Below, piece by piece: positions 6,368 through 24,522 of a DNA stretch of 45,375 nucleotides (position 1 is its first letter; every line of letters starts with the position of its first letter). The notes under the pieces were generated by a model that searched no databases, had not been told where the DNA came from, and saw nothing but the letters and a program-made list of their open reading frames with translations. The translations under genes were made by a program, and so were the position numbers. The stretch lies in the NCBI GenBank assembly GCA_016874795.1, contig VGTG01000032.1, positions 1-45,375 of the forward strand, written 5' to 3'. The stretch comes from Deltaproteobacteria bacterium. GTDB lineage: Bacteria > Desulfobacterota > Binatia > UBA12015.

Positions 6368-7525
6368 TTACCTCCGGAGGAGGACCGCGCTCGTCGGCAC
6401 GCCCTCGCCGCTCGTCACGAGGCAGGACTCGGCGCCCTCCACCTGGCAGGGCGAGGTCCCGCGCATCTGACGCACTCCCTCGAGGATCAGGTTGAAGCCG
6501 TGCACGTAGGCCTCCGACATCCCGCCGCCGGAGGTGTTGGTCGGAAGGCGTCCGCTCGGCCACTCGAGCGCGCCGTTCTCGGTGAACGCCGCGCCCTCGC
6601 CGCGCGCGCAGAACCCGTAGCCCTCGAGCGAGAGCGGGATCAGAGGGCTGAACGCGTCGTAGAGCTGCGCGACGGGCACGTCCGCGGGCTTGATCTCGCT
6701 CCGCTCCCAGAGGAGCCGCGCGCACGCGTACGACGGACCCAGGAGCGGGTCGTCGCAGAAGTAGTTCGTCATCACCTGGTGCTGTCGTGGGATGCTCTGC
6801 GCGAAGGAGTGCACGTACACGGGCGGTTGGCGGAGGTCCCGCGCGCGCTCCGCAGAGACGATGACCACCGCGAGAGCGCCGTCTGTCTCGAGGCAGTTGT
6901 CGAAGAGGCAGAGCGGCTCGGAGATCCAGCGCGCCTGCATGTACTGCTCGTGCGTGAGCTCGCGGCCGTACATCGTCGCGTTCGGGTTCCGGTTCGCGTG
7001 CTTGCGGAAAGCGACGGCGACGTTCGCGAGGTGCTCGCGCTTCGCACCGAACTCGTGCATGTACCGCCGCGTCAGCATCGCGATCTCGTCGACCGGGCGG
7101 AGGAGCCCCCAGGGCCGACTCCATTGCTGTGCGCCCTCGAGACGCTGCCCGACGTTCGCCCACGGCCGGCTCGACTTCGCGGCCCGCTTGCGCGCGCGCC
7201 ACGCGACCGCGGCCGTGCACTGCCCGGTCGCGACCGCCATCGCGGCGTGCCCGATCGCGCCGCAGCCGGCGCCGCCGCCGTAGCCGATCTCGCCGAAGTA
7301 CGTGATGTCGCCGAGGCCGACGCTGCGCGCGATCTCGAACTCGCGGTTGTTCTCCATCGAGTACATCGAGAGGCCGTCGACCTCCGACGCGTCGATGCCC
7401 GCGTCCTCGATCGCCGCTGCGATCGCCTGACAGGCGAGCGACAGCTCGGAGTCCTCGAGCCCCTTCGCGAAGCGCGTCTGGCCGATGCCGACGATGGCGG
7501 TGCGGTCCTGGATTCCGATCGACAT
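6368..7525 (-). CDS. SCP2/lipid-transfer-type thiolase-like protein
   Basis: The 385-aa product shows the thiolase fold of the SCP2/Ltp branch: AIVGIGQTRFA at the N-terminus, SLACQAIAAAIEDAGIDASE, a GYGGGAGCGAIGHAAMAV segment (Cys88), LCLFDNCLETDGALAV, AQLYDAFSPL and NTSGGGMSEAYVHGFN. In true thiolases the last motif contains GHP with a catalytic histidine; here that is replaced, as in Ltp2-type aldolases. With its DUF35 partner directly downstream it most resembles an Ltp-DUF35 retro-aldolase or CoA-ester lyase. That assignment is inference; the fold is clear. No strong ribosome binding site is seen before ATG 7525. Confidence 0.88.
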   Translation of the reverse strand: MSIGIQDRTAIVGIGQTRFAKGLEDSELSLACQAIAAAIEDAGIDASEVDGLSMYSMENNREFEIARSVGLGDITYFGEIGYGGGAGCGAIGHAAMAVATGQCTAAVAWRARKRAAKSSRPWANVGQRLEGAQQWSRPWGLLRPVDEIAMLTRRYMHEFGAKREHLANVAVAFRKHANRNPNATMYGRELTHEQYMQARWISEPLCLFDNCLETDGALAVVIVSAERARDLRQPPVYVHSFAQSIPRQHQVMTNYFCDDPLLGPSYACARLLWERSEIKPADVPVAQLYDAFSPLIPLSLEGYGFCARGEGAAFTENGALEWPSGRLPTNTSGGGMSEAYVHGFNLILEGVRQMRGTSPCQVEGAESCLVTSGEGVPTSAVLLRR

Positions 7526-7637
7526 GGGCCTGTGCTCACCACATCGCGAGCGCTCGCGCCAGCGTCGGCGGCCGGGCGTCGCCCCAACGGCATCGACGGC
7601 TCTGGCGTTCGACGTGCGCCGCGGACTACAGAGCCTC

Positions 7638-8333
7638 ATGCGCCTCGCGCTCCGCGTCGCAGCGAGTGGTCTCGTCGCGGCCTTGGCGTGCACCTCCGCG
7701 CCGGAGAATGCACCGGAGCCGACCGCGACCGTGAGCGCGGAGCCGCTTGCGACGCCGAGCGCGACCGACGTCGCAAAGCCGCTGCTCGGATTCTCGGTTT
7801 CCGGCGGCGGCCTCGGCCACCGGACGTACGGCAAAGCCCTCGACGACATCACCGGAAGCTGGCTCTTCGATCGCCGCTCGCGCCAGACGGAGGTCCACCT
7901 CTCCGGGCAAGAAGGCTCGCTTCGCGTCGGCCTCGATCTCTCGATCCCGCTCCGCGGGCCGGGCACCTACGAAGCGCGCTCCGAGTACCGCGGCATCGAC
8001 CGGCGCTTCATCGTCGCACTCACCGATCACGCGACCGGTGAGCGGACCTCGCTCGTCGCGGTCGAGGCGAGCGCGACGCTCGCGACGAGCCCGGCGGATC
8101 CGGCGTGGCTCGAGGGCCGCTTCCAGGGACGCTTCGCGGTCGGCCGGCTGTCGAGCGGTCGCGACGTCCTCGACACGCCGCCCGAGAAGCGCATCTTTGC
8201 GACGATCACGGGCGGCCGCTTCGCGATCGGCTTCGCCGACACGCTTCGCGGCCGCGGACGCCCCTGGCCGCAGGGCTCGAGCGCCGTCCTCGATCGTCGA
8301 AAGTCCGTCCTGCGGGGATCGAGCGATCCCTAG
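7638..8333 (+). CDS. Hypothetical lipoprotein
   Basis: The 231-aa product has a lipoprotein signal (MRLALRVAASGLVAALACTS; lipobox LAC, Cys at residue 18), a short low-complexity linker rich in Pro/Ala/Thr, and a beta-rich domain (LLGFSVSGGGLGHRTYGKAL, RQTEVHLSGQEGSLRVGLDL, FIVALTDHATGERTSLVAVE, GGRFAIGFADTL). The family is not recognised. It would be anchored to an envelope membrane facing the periplasm. It is divergent from the thiolase gene with a 112-base gap and is followed 24 bases later by an alpha/beta hydrolase. Confidence 0.75.
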   Translation: MRLALRVAASGLVAALACTSAPENAPEPTATVSAEPLATPSATDVAKPLLGFSVSGGGLGHRTYGKALDDITGSWLFDRRSRQTEVHLSGQEGSLRVGLDLSIPLRGPGTYEARSEYRGIDRRFIVALTDHATGERTSLVAVEASATLATSPADPAWLEGRFQGRFAVGRLSSGRDVLDTPPEKRIFATITGGRFAIGFADTLRGRGRPWPQGSSAVLDRRKSVLRGSSDP

Positions 8334-8357
8334 CCCGGCCAGGTATCTAGGGGCGCG

Positions 8358-9266
8358 GTGACGCCTGCGCCCTCCTACCCCGGTGCCCTGGCTCCCGAGC
8401 GCGCGTGGTGGCTCGAGTCCCTCGGCGTGCGCTTGCGCGTGCACGAGTGGGGTGATCCCGGCGCACCGCCGGTCGTCCTCTGCCACGGCATGTTCGACCA
8501 CGGGCGCGTGTTCGACGTGCTTGCGCCGCTCCTCGCGGAGCGCTTTCGGGTCGTCGCGTACGACGCGCGCGGACACGGCGACTCGGAGTGGGCCTCGGCC
8601 TACTCGTGGCCGATCGACGTGATCTCGATCGTGCAGCTCCTGCGCTCGCTCCGGCGGCCGGCCCATCTCGTCGGACACAGCCGCGGCGGCGCACAGGCGA
8701 CGGACGCGGCCGCGCGCGCGCCCGTCGACGTTCGCCAGCTCGTCAACATCGACGGCTTCGGTCCCCCGCCGGAGGGCTTCGACGAATTCGGCGAGCGCAG
8801 CACGAAGCCGCTTCCCGAGCGCTTCGCCGAGTACCTCGACTGGCGCCGCGGCGCGAGCACGCGATCGACGTGGCGCGCGTACGACGGGATCGAAGACCTG
8901 GTCGACCGCCGCATCCGACAGAATCCGAGATTGACGCGCGAGTGGCTGCGCTACTTCGCGTACCACGGCGCGCGGGAGACCGAGCGCGGCTGGATCTGGA
9001 AGGCGGACCCGCACCTGACGCGCGGCTTCGGCCCGTGGCAGCCCGGGTGGATCGCGCCGGGATGGGCGCCTCTCCGCGTGCCGATGCTCGCAGTGACCGG
9101 CACCGAGCGCGACACGTGGGGCCCGCTGCCCGAGAAGCTGATCCAGGAGCGTCTCGCGTACGTCCCGCACGCCGAGCGGGCCCGCGTCGCGGGCGCGGGC
9201 CATTTCGTGCACCTCGAGCGTCCGCGCGAGACCGCGGACGTCCTGCTCGCCTGGCTCGAGCGATGA
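8358..9266 (+). CDS. Alpha/beta hydrolase
   Basis: The 302-aa product is a canonical alpha/beta hydrolase: VVLCHGMFDHG oxyanion segment, YDARGHGDSEW, nucleophile elbow GHSRGG (Ser), and a C-terminal GAGHFVHLERP carrying the catalytic histidine. It is cytoplasmic, with no signal peptide. Likely an esterase, lactonase or C-C bond hydrolase; the substrate is unknown. The start is GTG at 8358. Its stop overlaps the start of the next, related gene (ATGA at 9263-9266), so both are made together. Confidence 0.9.
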   Translation: MTPAPSYPGALAPERAWWLESLGVRLRVHEWGDPGAPPVVLCHGMFDHGRVFDVLAPLLAERFRVVAYDARGHGDSEWASAYSWPIDVISIVQLLRSLRRPAHLVGHSRGGAQATDAAARAPVDVRQLVNIDGFGPPPEGFDEFGERSTKPLPERFAEYLDWRRGASTRSTWRAYDGIEDLVDRRIRQNPRLTREWLRYFAYHGARETERGWIWKADPHLTRGFGPWQPGWIAPGWAPLRVPMLAVTGTERDTWGPLPEKLIQERLAYVPHAERARVAGAGHFVHLERPRETADVLLAWLER

Positions 9267-9979
9267 TGACCAGCTCGATGATCCGGCTCGAGCACGGTCG
9301 AGCGACGCTCGCTCTGCATCGCCTGCGCGACGCGGAAGGTCCCCCGCTCCTTCTCCTGCACGGGCTGCGCGGCTCGAGCGCGGACTGGAAGGAAAGCGGC
9401 GACCCCGACGCCTGGCCGGGCTCCGTCTACGCGATCGATTTCGCGGGCCACGGCGGCTCGGGTTGGCTGCGCGGCGGCGGCTACCATCCGGAGATCTTCG
9501 CTGCGGACGCGGATCTCGCTCTCGAGGAGATCGGGACCGCGTACGTCGTCGGAGCGGGCGTCGGCGCCTACGCGGCTCTGCTGCTCGCGGGCGCGCGGCC
9601 CGACCTCGTGCCTGCGGCGCTGCTCCTTCCGGGGAGAGGGCTCGACGGCGGAGGCGGACATCCCGACTTCTTCGCTTTCGCGCGCGGCTTCGACGCCGAG
9701 CTCCGCACGCTCACGAGCCCACCGGAGCCGCCGCCCTCGCACGACCCGCTCGTGCGTCACGCCGAGACCGACGTGCGACCGCCGGAGTACGCGAGCGCGT
9801 TCGCCGAGCGCGCTCGCCGGCTCATCCTCGTCGCGCGTGACGGAGTCGCACCGCGGTGGTGGACCGCGGTCGTCGAGTCGCCCGCCGCCGAAGCCGTCCA
9901 CGGTGCGGCGACGCGCTCGTGGAGCGAGCTCGCGACCGCACACCTGCTCGTTGCATCACCTGCGCGTGATGGCGCGTGA
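9263..9979 (+). CDS. Alpha/beta hydrolase-fold protein lacking the nucleophile serine
   Basis: The 238-aa product has the fold's early landmarks (LLLLHGLRGSSADW, AIDFAGHGGSGW), but the nucleophile elbow reads V-V-G-A-G-V-G-A-Y: the serine of G-x-S-x-G is glycine. No obvious catalytic histidine follows in the C-terminal third. It is therefore probably non-hydrolytic, perhaps a pseudoenzyme partner of the upstream hydrolase, to which it is translationally coupled by an ATGA overlap. The proline-rich loop EPPPSHDPLV is unusual. It might also be a decaying paralogue. Confidence 0.8.
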   Translation: MMTSSMIRLEHGRATLALHRLRDAEGPPLLLLHGLRGSSADWKESGDPDAWPGSVYAIDFAGHGGSGWLRGGGYHPEIFAADADLALEEIGTAYVVGAGVGAYAALLLAGARPDLVPAALLLPGRGLDGGGGHPDFFAFARGFDAELRTLTSPPEPPPSHDPLVRHAETDVRPPEYASAFAERARRLILVARDGVAPRWWTAVVESPAAEAVHGAATRSWSELATAHLLVASPARDGA

Positions 9980-17061: not shown

Positions 17062-18444
17062 TCACACGACGGTACGGCTCAAACGATCGACGACCGTCAT
17101 CGTGTAGGCGACGAGGAGACCTTCTCCGGTCGACCCCTCCGCCGACAGACGAGCCGTCGTCGGCTGCCCGGGCTTCACCTCCACGCTCCGCGCGATGCGC
17201 GCCTTCGGCGGAACGCTCCGCTCCGGACACGGGCCCTCCTGCCACCCGACGACGTCCCGGTCGGCCGGCGTGACGGTTCCGTCGTGATCGACATCCGCGC
17301 CCGGGTTCCAAGTCGCGTCGCCGGGTACGGAGCCGAGCGCCGCCTCGACCGGCGCGAGATCCGCCGGTCCGACGGTGCGGTCCCCGTCGACGTCGGCGTT
17401 GCAGCCCGGGAAGAGCACCGTCGCCGCCTTCGAGAGCTTGCCGCCGTACACCGGACGGTCGAGCGTCACCGTCTTCGTCGTCTCGAACGCCTTCTCGCAG
17501 CTCGCAAACCACGGACGGTCGACGAACGTCCCCGACGAGCGGTTGTCGAAGCACGTTCCGGACGGATTCGTGAAGCGCGAGAGCGTGATCGCGTTGTCGA
17601 GCGATCCGTTCGCGATCCGGAGCGTCCCTTCGAACTCCTCGAAGAGGAACGTGTTGTCGCGATTGTCGTCCTCGAGCCACTGCAGCGGCGAGCCGAGCCA
17701 GCGGTTGTAGGAGAAGTCGTTCCAGGACGCGGAGCGCATCTCGAGCCCCTGCGAGCCACCCGTCGCGACGTTGCCGCGGATCTCCGAGTCCTCGACGGAG
17801 ATCAGATACATCTGCTCGAACCCGTTGTGCGCGAGCCGGTTTTCGAAGATCTGCACATCCTCGGAGTGCGAGACGTGCAGGCCCTCGTTGCCGTTGTCGT
17901 CGATCTCGTTCCGTAGGACGAGGATCTCGCTCGAATCGGCGACGTCGATGCCGTATCCCGTGCCGTTCTCGTCCGGATCCTTCCAGCCGTTCTCGTGGGC
18001 ACGGTTGTCCTCGAGCGTGACGCGCGTGGAGTCGGTGACGTAGATCCCCCACCAGAAACCCGTCACCTCGCAGTTGCGCACCGTGACCTGGTCCACGGGT
18101 CGCGTCGCGGAGCCGACCCGGATACCGAACTCCTCCTTCCGTCGATCGGCGGGTCCACGGATCGCGAAGCCGGCGCAGTCGAGGACGACGTCGGAATCGA
18201 CGCGGAGGCCGACGAGCTCGTCGACGTCCTCGGGCCACGCGCACGGGCCGATGTCCGCGGTGAGCGTCGTGTCCACGATCACGCGATCACCGCACTGGCA
18301 CGGGATCGCTCCGCCGCAATCGGCGGCCCGCACCGTGGCAGCGAGCGCGAGCGAGGCGACGACGGCGACGGCGACCGACGCCGCGAGGAGAGGGAGGCTG
18401 GCTGGGCGGGAGCGGCTCCGCATGGCGCTTCGATTGAGACGCAT
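17062..18444 (-). CDS. Secreted right-handed beta-helix protein with dockerin-type repeats
   Basis: The product is about 460 aa. A signal peptide (LLAASVAVAVVASLALAATV) is followed by a mature start ADCGGAIPCQCGDRV, then NosD-like parallel beta-helix coils (GYGIDVADSSEILVLRNEID, EGLHVSHSEDVQIFENRLAH, and more). Around residues 345-400 are two Ca-binding dockerin-type loops (DVDGDRTVGPADL and DVDHDGTVTPADR), then the start of a PKD/Ig-like domain. It is exported and probably binds or cleaves surface polysaccharide; no catalytic residues are evident. The start may be ATG 18444 or 18423. The stop falls inside the last domain (see the tail at 16918-17061). Confidence 0.85.
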   Translation of the reverse strand: MRLNRSAMRSRSRPASLPLLAASVAVAVVASLALAATVRAADCGGAIPCQCGDRVIVDTTLTADIGPCAWPEDVDELVGLRVDSDVVLDCAGFAIRGPADRRKEEFGIRVGSATRPVDQVTVRNCEVTGFWWGIYVTDSTRVTLEDNRAHENGWKDPDENGTGYGIDVADSSEILVLRNEIDDNGNEGLHVSHSEDVQIFENRLAHNGFEQMYLISVEDSEIRGNVATGGSQGLEMRSASWNDFSYNRWLGSPLQWLEDDNRDNTFLFEEFEGTLRIANGSLDNAITLSRFTNPSGTCFDNRSSGTFVDRPWFASCEKAFETTKTVTLDRPVYGGKLSKAATVLFPGCNADVDGDRTVGPADLAPVEAALGSVPGDATWNPGADVDHDGTVTPADRDVVGWQEGPCPERSVPPKARIARSVEVKPGQPTTARLSAEGSTGEGLLVAYTMTVVDRLSRTVV

Positions 18445-18471
18445 CGCGCATCGGGCGTGAGCGCGCAAGCC

Positions 18472-22761: not shown

Positions 22762-23472
22762 ATGCCCCCGAAGAGAACGCGAGCGACGCTGATGCTGGCA
22801 CCACTGGTCGCCTCCTGCTTGCTCGCTCCGACGGACGCACGCGCGCAGGTCGGCAGGAGCGGCAACGCCGTCGACGCGCTCTCCCGCAACCCGACGGGAC
22901 CGTCGCCGCGGAATCCGGTCGGGCCGCCACTCCGGAATCCCGTCGGTCCCTCGCCGCGGAATCCGGTCGGGCCCTCGCCCCGAAACCCGGTCGGGCCGTC
23001 GCCGCAGAATCCAGTCGGGCCGCCGCCGCTGAATCCGACCGGTCCGCCGCCGTTGAACGCGGTCGGACGAACGCCGTTCGACCCGACCGGTCCCACGCCC
23101 CTCGATCCGACGGGACCGCCGCCGCTCGACGCCGTCGGCGAGACGCCTTTCGATCCCGCGGGCCCGACGCCCCTCGAGGCCGTTGGAGACACGCCGCTCG
23201 ATGCGACGGGCCCGACGCCGCTCGACGCGGTCGGCGACCCGCCGCTCGAGCCGACCGGCCCGGCGGCCTTCGATCCCGACGCGACGGTCGCGGTGATCGA
23301 GGATCGCGGCGTCCTGACGGACGTCTCCGCGACGTTCTTCTGCGAGGGACACGGGCGGGGCTTCGCGAGCGAGGACAGCTTCGCCGATCACCTTCTCTCG
23401 ACGCACGGATTCTCGCTCGAAGAGGCGGCGCCCGACCTGTTCCTCGATCAGGGAGTCTGGATCCTTCCCTGA
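22762..23472 (+). CDS. Secreted octapeptide-repeat protein with C2H2-like motif
   Basis: The 236-aa product has a signal peptide (LMLAPLVASCLLAPTDARAQ). Residues 43-170 then hold sixteen uninterrupted 8-residue repeats of the form [ND]-[PA]-[VT]-G-P-x-P-[LFR] (for example NPVGPSPR, DPTGPTPL, DAVGETPF). A 66-residue C-terminal domain contains F-F-C-E-G-H...H-L-L-S-T-H: Cys194, His197, His210 and His215, a C-x2-H-x12-H-x4-H pattern with the spacing of a classical zinc finger. The repeat should form an extended proline-rich stalk. I recognise no family. The broken exosortase gene lies 370 bases downstream on the other strand. Confidence 0.8.
   Translation: MPPKRTRATLMLAPLVASCLLAPTDARAQVGRSGNAVDALSRNPTGPSPRNPVGPPLRNPVGPSPRNPVGPSPRNPVGPSPQNPVGPPPLNPTGPPPLNAVGRTPFDPTGPTPLDPTGPPPLDAVGETPFDPAGPTPLEAVGDTPLDATGPTPLDAVGDPPLEPTGPAAFDPDATVAVIEDRGVLTDVSATFFCEGHGRGFASEDSFADHLLSTHGFSLEEAAPDLFLDQGVWILP
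22888..23271 (+). repeat. Sixteen in-frame 24-bp coding repeats
   Basis: These encode the octapeptides of the secreted protein. The first half (NPVGPSPR type) is highly uniform, suggesting recent duplication. The second half alternates D-P-T-G-P-T-P-L with D-A-V-G-E-T-P-F-like units, so the higher-order period there is 48 bp. Confidence 0.9.
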
Positions 23473-23569: not shown

Positions 23570-24250
23570 ACGAGCTCTCGCCCGACCGCGAGATGCGCTC
23601 TCGCCGACGTCGGGTTCCGCTCCGCGGTCCGCTCGAAGCGCGCGAGCCGGTCTTCCGGCCCGATCGACGGCGTCGGAAGGAGGGAAACGACGAACACGGC
23701 GAGCACCGCGGCCCACGCGAGGAACGCCGCGCGCCCGCTGCCCGTCCCGCTTCCCGCGGGCAGCGAGCGATCGTCCGCCAGGAGAGCGGGAGCATACGCG
23801 AGCAGCACGAGCGCCGCGGGCAGCAGGAGCTGCAGGACAGACATGCAGGTGAACCCGCTCGAACGCCGCGGGCCAGTATGCCCCGAGGACGAGGAGGCTC
23901 GCGACCCGGAAGAGGTTCACCACGAAGATCGCCGGCACGCCGAGCAGCACCCCCATCCCACGCGCACGCCAGGAGGTCGGAAACGCGAGCACCGCGGCCA
24001 GGTAGATCGTCGCCGGCAGGAGCCCGTTGCACGCGTCGACCACGAGGACCTCGAAGCCGTCGAACCCGAGGCGGGTACCCTCCTGCAGCGTCACGGCGCC
24101 GAAGGGTGCGAGGAGCGAGGCGACGAGGCGTGCGACGAGACGGCAGAGCGGGGCCTCGAGCCAGCGGTCGGCGGTGTCCGTCGCGAGGCCGACCTGGAAC
24201 AGGGCTACCCAGGCGAGGAAGAACGCAGTGAACCGGAGATGAATTTTCAC
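23570..24250 (-). pseudogene. Exosortase H-like gene, frameshifted and fused to a TPR-like fragment
   Basis: From GTG 24250 the first 137 codons read as an exosortase/archaeosortase: helices FTAFFLAWVALFQVG, FEVLVVDACNGLLPATIYLA with catalytic Cys74, PAIFVVNLFRVASLLVLGAY with Arg115, and FERVHLHV with His134. The frame then turns to arginine-rich noise. The neighbouring frame from 23844 restores a membrane helix (SVLQLLLPAALVLLAYA), a second helix (AAFLAWAAVLAVFVVSLL) and a TPR-like stretch (ERTAERNPTSARAHLAVGRE), ending without a stop near 23570. Exosortases cut C-terminal sorting signals at the inner membrane. All three catalytic residues precede the break, so a truncated active protein is possible. 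Confidence 0.6.
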
Positions 24251-24522
24251 TCCGGGGCCTCGTGTAACGCGGTTGCAACACGATAGAGACAGACCCGCAA
24301 CATCTCCCCCGTACCCTACCACGCGGAGAGGAGGCCGGAGGAGCGGGTACGCGCATGCCCCGCGAGCGGGTCGACGACTCTCGCGACCTCGCCCGATGGC
24401 AGGAGCGCCGGGAAGGCGCCGTTGCGGCGATCCGGGCGAGCCGAAGTTCTCGCGCTGAGCGCGAGCTCGCAGCCGGGCGATCCTCTTGGACGGCAGGACG
24501 GGAAGAAAGGAACAGGAAGAAG
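24251..24522. other. Leader region of the phosphate-transport operon
   Basis: No gene is evident here. The stretch separates the broken exosortase gene from pstS. It contains an inverted repeat TCGTGT-12 bases-ACACGA at 24260-24283 that could be a regulator site. No convincing Pho box (tandem CTGTCAT-like 7-mers) is seen. A+G-rich sequence (GGAAGAAAGGAACAGGAAG) immediately precedes the pstS start. Confidence 0.4.

Follow-up and report, generated by a model that had tools for sequence, protein, structure and literature searches.

A putative exported, single-cysteine C2H2-type zinc-finger family in Candidatus Binatia

The window, the whole stretch of DNA that was analysed (45,375 nucleotides), comes from a draft genome of 360 contigs. 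It carries, 98 bases after a malonyl-CoA decarboxylase gene, a gene for a predicted exported protein with a repeat array and a finger-like C-terminal domain. The features of this gene are as follows:

22762..23472, + strand: gene for a putative exported octapeptide-repeat / single-Cys zinc-finger protein of 236 aa (open reading frame; same-frame homologues)
22762..22845, + strand: predicted Sec-type signal peptide, residues 1-28, putative cleavage between DARA and Q29 (crude rule)
22885..23268, + strand: 16 tandem octapeptides, residues 42-169, a presumed flexible stalk (repeat register)
23290..23469, + strand: C-terminal segment modelled by AlphaFold2 (AF2), residues 177-236
23341..23343, + strand: C194, first putative zinc ligand (invariant, 36/36 members)
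23350..23352, + strand: H197, second putative ligand (H 26, D 7, C 3; n=36)
23389..23391, + strand: H210, third putative ligand (invariant, 36/36)
23404..23406, + strand: H215, fourth putative ligand (H 31, D 5; n=36)

Long minus-strand frames overlap the gene, yet codon-position GC of 0.74/0.60/0.84 favours the plus frame, and a shadow-ORF artefact was rejected. Because homologues conserve the plus frame, 22762-23472 is a real gene and not a minus-strand shadow. The signal peptide has an n-region with KR, a hydrophobic core of 11 residues (mean KD 2.27) and an A-x-A-like motif before Q29, and a signal peptidase I motif fits the protein; all signal-peptide calls were made with a crude in-house rule, not SignalP. 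A lipobox-like sequence occurs in 2/36 members, namely the window protein (VASC at C19) and L046, and is absent in the six other members from family f1, that of the window protein. Since the lipobox Cys is not conserved, a lipoprotein was rejected for the family as a whole, not for the window protein by itself.

Beside the finger gene, at about 23570-24322 on the minus strand, we observed an exosortase-H-like gene whose N-terminal part scored 78.8 bits against TIGR04177 (cut-off 86). Hydrophobic sequence seems to resume in another frame near 23845, and the gene has either a draft frameshift or is broken. As this gene adjoins the finger gene, we considered whether the finger protein is an exosortase (PEP-CTERM type) substrate. 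This was rejected, as the protein is without a C-terminal transmembrane helix and basic tail: past residue 170 the maximum KD19 is 1.01, and the final residues are DQGVWILP. Elsewhere in the window, 17062-18468 (minus strand) encodes a right-handed beta-helix / NosD-like protein, a stretch of which resembles dockerin type I at a score under the cut-off.

The preliminary description of this DNA had reported a signal peptide followed by 16 octapeptides and a C-x2-H-x12-H-x4-H motif in the C-terminal domain. The repeats are present in exact 8-residue register, and the motif stands at C194/H197/H210/H215, in full C194-x2-H197-x3-F201-x5-F207-x2-H210-x4-H215. The mature protein contains 1 Cys and 3 His in total, which are the four motif residues; its only other Cys, C19, lies inside the signal peptide. 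When the C-terminal 66 residues (171-236) were shuffled, a looser form of the motif, with C/H/D at the second ligand and including the hydrophobic positions, arose in 10/200,000 shuffles.

We then examined the repeat array at the protein and DNA levels. Residues eight apart were identical at 75/120 positions; 20,000 shuffles averaged 18.1 and never exceeded 33. The array is uniform on its N side and alternating on its C side, as had been described: neighbouring units on the N side share 81% of residues (lag 1), and on the C side identity is 59% at lag 2 versus 50% at lag 1. Units 1-7 are the more uniform part, and units 8-16 alternate with a 16-residue period. The further suggestion of ongoing expansion did not hold, for units 3, 4 and 5 have the same protein sequence yet only 19-21/24 bases in common, the divergence falling at synonymous sites. 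Since protein-identical units differ in their bases, the array is old and has been conserved as protein. The number of units varies between relatives, with 16 in the window and 1-4 in six other f1 members, these f1 counts being made with a strict pattern that undercounts looser units; G003, the nearest relative, has about 3 looser units and is undercounted in this way. Linkers in the other families are 35-137 residues long and often rich in Pro, Gly, Tyr, Val, Arg or His. Because linkers vary in this manner across families, the stalk is a variable spacer and the C-terminal domain the conserved part. Five loci (L015, L046, L122, L123 and L124) encode long linkers with 9-24 His in the mature chain, possibly extra metal-binding segments.

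To place the C-terminal domain, we compared it with catalogued families and with related genomes. The window protein matched no Pfam family at E<=10 and none in NCBIfam, which bears out the earlier statement that no family was recognised; the analysis likewise supports the earlier reading of a zinc-finger-like module on an exported stalk rich in proline. Seven relatives gave two chance-level Pfam matches and nothing else, and 30 members scanned singly against Pfam and NCBIfam gave only scattered weak matches. The best single-member Pfam match was Zn_peptidase (E 0.0083, in one member), followed by Nuc_N (0.01). Pfam zf-C2H2 was matched by 1/30 members (E 0.085), and the window domain matched 0 families; that unrelated families outscore zf-C2H2 in single members was counted against a zinc-finger reading. 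A domain search of 98 relatives found 16 with a match at E<=0.1, the window's own genome included, of which two, L013 (E 0.024) and L017 (E 0.082), were spurious, being without the motif and in no alignment. A profile search then yielded 36 copies in 33/148 genomes of class Candidatus Binatia, spread over 19/72 genera and six families. In a 395-genome sample of the phylum, with at most 16 candidates scored per genome, the 3 matches all fell inside this class. Plasmids gave no match at E<=0.1; a scan of viral contigs with one pattern picked out 23 stretches, of which 0 encoded a relative. Peptides of the window protein, run against a contig collection, retrieved no relative, and a scan with an f1-type pattern gave five matches, four or five of them already-known f1 copies. 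When the literature was searched for zinc fingers that are exported, bacterial or of CHHH type, no such family was among the matches listed. Judged by these searches, the domain is an uncatalogued family, found across one class of uncultured bacteria. Alignment A1 holds 14 sequences and A2 and A4 hold 30 each; motif and export counts use all 36 copies.

The putative ligand positions were compared across these copies. The pattern C-x2-[H/D/C]-x12-H-x3-5-[H/D] is kept in 36/36 members, with the ligand sets CHHH in 21, CDHH in 7, CHHD in 5 and CCHH in 3; the ligand Cys is thus single in 33/36. Asp occupies both variable ligand positions in 0/36 proteins. The two variable columns hold only C, H or D, compared with a median of 9 residue types over 55 well-filled columns. 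The eight lowest-entropy columns are the four ligands, an aromatic residue two before the Cys, the F, the hydrophobic core and an L after the third ligand, the last of them in rank tying with column 40 at 1.25 bits (two decimals). Seven of the eight fall at what we take to be the signature positions of classical C2H2 fingers; the L after the third ligand does not. The preliminary description had made its reading depend on conservation of the Cys and His residues in homologues. This held without exception for the C194 and H210 positions (invariant, 36/36) and not for the H197 and H215 positions, which vary; the latter carry metal-ligand residues only (H 26/D 7/C 3 and H 31/D 5), which favours metal binding. 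Substitution confined to metal-binding residues would be hard to explain without a metal. In a tree built from few columns, with 10/33 inner branches open and with counts that compare the three non-CHHH labels among themselves only, the five CHHD rows formed one group (100/100), and CDHH needed two changes, with a single origin still possible.

Asp as second ligand has a precedent in the CysAspHis2 sphere of the M. loti Ros homologues Ml1-Ml3 (PMC9779718). Tetrahedral geometry is kept with Asp (Ros87_C27D) or His (a eukaryotic finger) at the second position, and a second-position Asp can also disturb this geometry in eukaryotic fingers, according to another paper (PMC5745721).

Structure prediction was carried out with AF2 on a 30-member alignment, giving models without zinc. 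For the window protein (mean pLDDT 85.0) the predicted elements are strands 192-194 and 199-201, helix 204-215, helix 219-225 and strands 227-229 and 232-235. Per ten-residue block, mean pLDDT was 93-97 from residue 197, 82 for 187-196 and 46 for 177-186. A CDHH member used as second query gave the same element order (mean pLDDT 84.6). The fold predicted in these two divergent members is thus a beta-beta-alpha finger followed by a helix and a hairpin.

Searches with the family profile against PDB sequences matched PRDM9 (3.2e-11), HIC2 (3.3e-5), ZBTB17 (8.3e-5) and ADR1 (0.0032), and by manual count 31/42 sequences at E<=10 were C2H2 proteins. In the highest scores several tandem fingers are added together; the ADR1 match covers one stretch. 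In three PDB chains inspected in detail, single fingers scored E 0.72 or worse, which was counted against the zinc-finger reading. The same 30 sequences reversed gave 1 match, Dachshund (E 1.5), which is not a zinc finger, and the window domain alone matched nothing significantly among PDB sequences (best E 0.13). In Foldseek the top match of both models was a C2H2 finger at non-significant values (best E 1.5 and 0.95). C2H2 titles made up 20/35 rows for the window model and 23 among the best 50 of 111 for the CDHH model, the remaining rows being mostly unrelated proteins. VIA alignment, which covers Foldseek's own matches only, returned 13 chains at Z 2.3-3.5, 12 of them zinc fingers.

A plausible Sec-like N-terminus was found in 36/36 members under a lenient rule that picks the start codon to maximise the signal-peptide score, several of the starts being GTG or TTG. 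The weaker signals are those of L038 and L123 (whose best hydrophobic window includes a polar or charged residue), L044 (no A-x-A-like motif) and L124 (no K/R before the core). VKOR is a disulfide-forming oxidase; the window genome has a VKOR homologue and gave no match to DsbB, a pattern that would fit an oxidising periplasm. A lone Cys has no partner for a disulfide inside the finger, which may therefore keep its metal in such a compartment, and we infer that, with the second Cys lost, the finger can retain zinc beyond the cytoplasm. This oxidation argument does not predict the three CCHH members, exceptions in which both ligand Cys are present. An extra Cys pair after the finger, carried by 9/12 f2 members, could form its own disulfide.

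To look for functional partners, we analysed the gene neighbourhoods of the finger loci. The main recurrent arrangements are:

L055 (genome G005), 7511-9512: ECF sigma / zf-HC2 anti-sigma / DUF3106 group before uvrB
L034/L065, L036, L059, L060, L061, L070, L071: f2 loci with a downstream GlcD-like FAD-linked oxidase
L044/L105, L047, L066, L067, L073: f8 loci with a downstream phasin-like gene

The order anti-sigma/DUF3106/finger/uvrB is present in five f1 genomes (G004, G005, G006, G009 and G010), with an ECF sigma gene ahead of the anti-sigma gene on the four contigs long enough; the G006 contig ends within the anti-sigma gene. Gene identities were assigned by Pfam in G005 (PF04542/PF08281 for the ECF sigma, zf-HC2 PF13490 for the anti-sigma, PF11304 for DUF3106) and carried to the other f1 genomes by tblastn. 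In G005 the finger ATG lies on the DUF3106 stop codon in a 4-bp ATGA overlap. A literature search on DUF3106 found no paper. In the window's genus DUF3106 is directly followed by uvrB in 4/4 genomes, the operon being split between two contigs in G000; the finger gene is elsewhere in 2/4 (G000, G003) and was not found in 2/4 (G001, G002). Anti-sigma and DUF3106 matches in the window genome are on contigs other than that of the finger. The G003 finger locus, on a 6-kb contig, has no neighbours in common with the window, and a 1198-aa frame opposite this copy, without a Pfam match, is probably a shadow. No sigma, anti-sigma or DUF3106 match was obtained at ten finger loci that are not in the operon set, of which nine belong to other families. 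An envelope-stress link is therefore real for part of f1 and only suggestive for the window copy.

A universal operon partner was also sought and rejected: none is common to all families, and the neighbours in f1, f2 and f8 differ. In f2 the GlcD-like oxidase gene lies downstream on the same strand in 7/10 finger-bearing genomes, directly next to the finger gene or about 1.5 kb off (8 loci, two from one genome). In f8, 5/5 genomes with a CDHH copy have the phasin-like gene downstream of it and in the same orientation (6 loci, two from one genome).

Taken together, we consider it reasonably probable that the window protein is a Sec-exported Pro/Gly stalk bearing a CHHH C2H2-type finger that binds one Zn(II) and acts as a tethered binding head in envelope homeostasis. 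On this proposal, the predicted signal would direct Sec export to the periplasm or outside, and the octapeptide stalk, as its sequence suggests, would span or reach. One Zn(II) at C194, H197, H210 and H215 would lock the beta-beta-alpha finger with its helix and hairpin, as conservation and prediction suggest, and the resulting small rigid head may bind a protein or surface partner in the envelope. With a single Cys the head would retain its metal even in an oxidising periplasm, conditions that would endanger an ordinary two-Cys finger. In close relatives the finger would be made as the last gene of the ECF-sigma/anti-sigma/DUF3106 group.

The leading rival, which we hold to be rather doubtful, is a periplasmic zinc sensor or buffer that would bind Zn(II) reversibly, its occupancy serving as a signal or reserve for the anti-sigma/DUF3106 partners of the f1 operon. 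For the bacterial CZB domains, which have 3His,1Cys sites, a response to zinc availability has been proposed (PMC13370339). The sensor would also suit the anti-sigma and DUF3106 gene order in 5 relatives, with the ECF sigma visible in 4, the four members with 21-24 His in the mature chain, and the ligand sets that differ between genera, as expected if affinity were tuned. Four protein ligands, however, usually mean a structural zinc site, and the window protein has no His beyond its ligands; the ten other finger loci lack sigma, anti-sigma and DUF3106 matches, and the window genome holds its anti-sigma and DUF3106 genes on contigs away from the finger. A wider proposal, that these proteins form an extracytoplasmic C2H2-type lineage whose single-Cys sets (CHHH, CDHH, CHHD) evolved to keep zinc in an oxidising compartment and which serves, in the ECF-sigma operon of relatives, as the periplasmic zinc/redox reporter head of a flexible stalk, seems to us unlikely.

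The site might alternatively hold no metal, with the conserved Cys/His residues serving redox, covalent-attachment or hydrogen-bonding roles and the C2H2 look being convergent. Some Ros-family fingers fold without zinc (PMC9779718), and C2H2 fingers are matched only weakly, both by single members and by fold; we nevertheless regard this as improbable, because four positions at C2H2 spacing hold only C, H or D in 36/36 members and D occurs at either variable ligand position, never at both in one protein. Extracellular nucleic-acid binding in the manner of classical C2H2 proteins, with DNA outside the cell as one possible target, would agree with the profile and fold similarity to DNA-binding fingers and with the mildly basic fingers of f6 and f14 (mean charge +2.2 and +2.5). 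It is very improbable for the window protein, since the f1 heads are acidic (mean finger charge -2.1, whole domain -5.3; window finger -3, domain -7) and only a single finger is present.

If the tethered zinc-finger reading is right, an exported finger family with the eukaryotic x12 spacing and no Pfam or NCBIfam model would broaden the bacterial roles of this fold; the bacterial C2H2-type fingers described in the accessible part of a review are the DNA-binding Ros/MucR regulators (PMC9779718). The family would be a natural experiment in zinc-ligand exchange among C, H and D, with a testable reason, the avoidance of a disulfide outside the cytoplasm. For metal chemistry it supplies naturally occurring CHHH, CDHH and CHHD fingers; single-Cys fingers are called infrequently characterised in PMC5745721.

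Among known systems, the CZB (chemoreceptor zinc-binding) domain likewise has a bacterial 3His,1Cys zinc site, which in the finger family is putative. CZB domains are helical and belong to cytosolic signalling proteins, and Pfam holds a CZB model; membership was rejected, as the window protein is without any Pfam family at E<=10. A 2026 preprint states that the Cys-His-His-His motif is found only in CZB proteins (PMC13370339), a claim that would need qualifying if zinc were confirmed here. AFV1p06, an archaeal-virus zinc finger (PDB 2lvh), is likewise a finger of the prokaryotic world and, unlike this family, is viral; in Foldseek it aligned with the CDHH model over 32 columns (TM 0.64 on target, rmsd 1.1) at a non-significant E of 5.9.

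Ros/MucR proteins (PF05443) resemble the family as bacterial fingers with an added helix and, in Ml1-Ml3, a CysAspHis2 set (PMC9779718). The Ros ligands C79/C82/H92/H97 form C-x2-C-x9-H-x4-H (same source), whereas x12 spacing occurs in 36/36 family members, and Ros proteins, in contrast, are DNA-binding regulators. At E<=1 none of the 30 members scanned matched PF05443, and the window genome had no match to it either; Ros/MucR membership was rejected both on the C-x2-[CD]-x9-H-x3-4-H spacing and on this profile.

The family also resembles the classical eukaryotic C2H2 or Kruppel-type finger (PF00096). Both have [FY]-x-C-x2-[ligand]-x3-F-x5-hydrophobic-x2-H-x3-5-H with a predicted beta-beta-alpha fold, the family profile matches PDB C2H2 fingers, and the C-x2-5-C-x12-H-x3-5-H spacing is present in 36/36 members. 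Unlike classical fingers, the family is predicted to be exported, has a single finger with an extra C-terminal helix and hairpin, carries His or Asp in place of the second Cys in 33/36 members (the window protein being CHHH) and scores below the Pfam cut-off for PF00096; the window protein is also acidic. As the spacing and predicted fold agree with C2H2 and the ligand set and Pfam score do not, the family would be a variant of the C2H2 finger and not a member.
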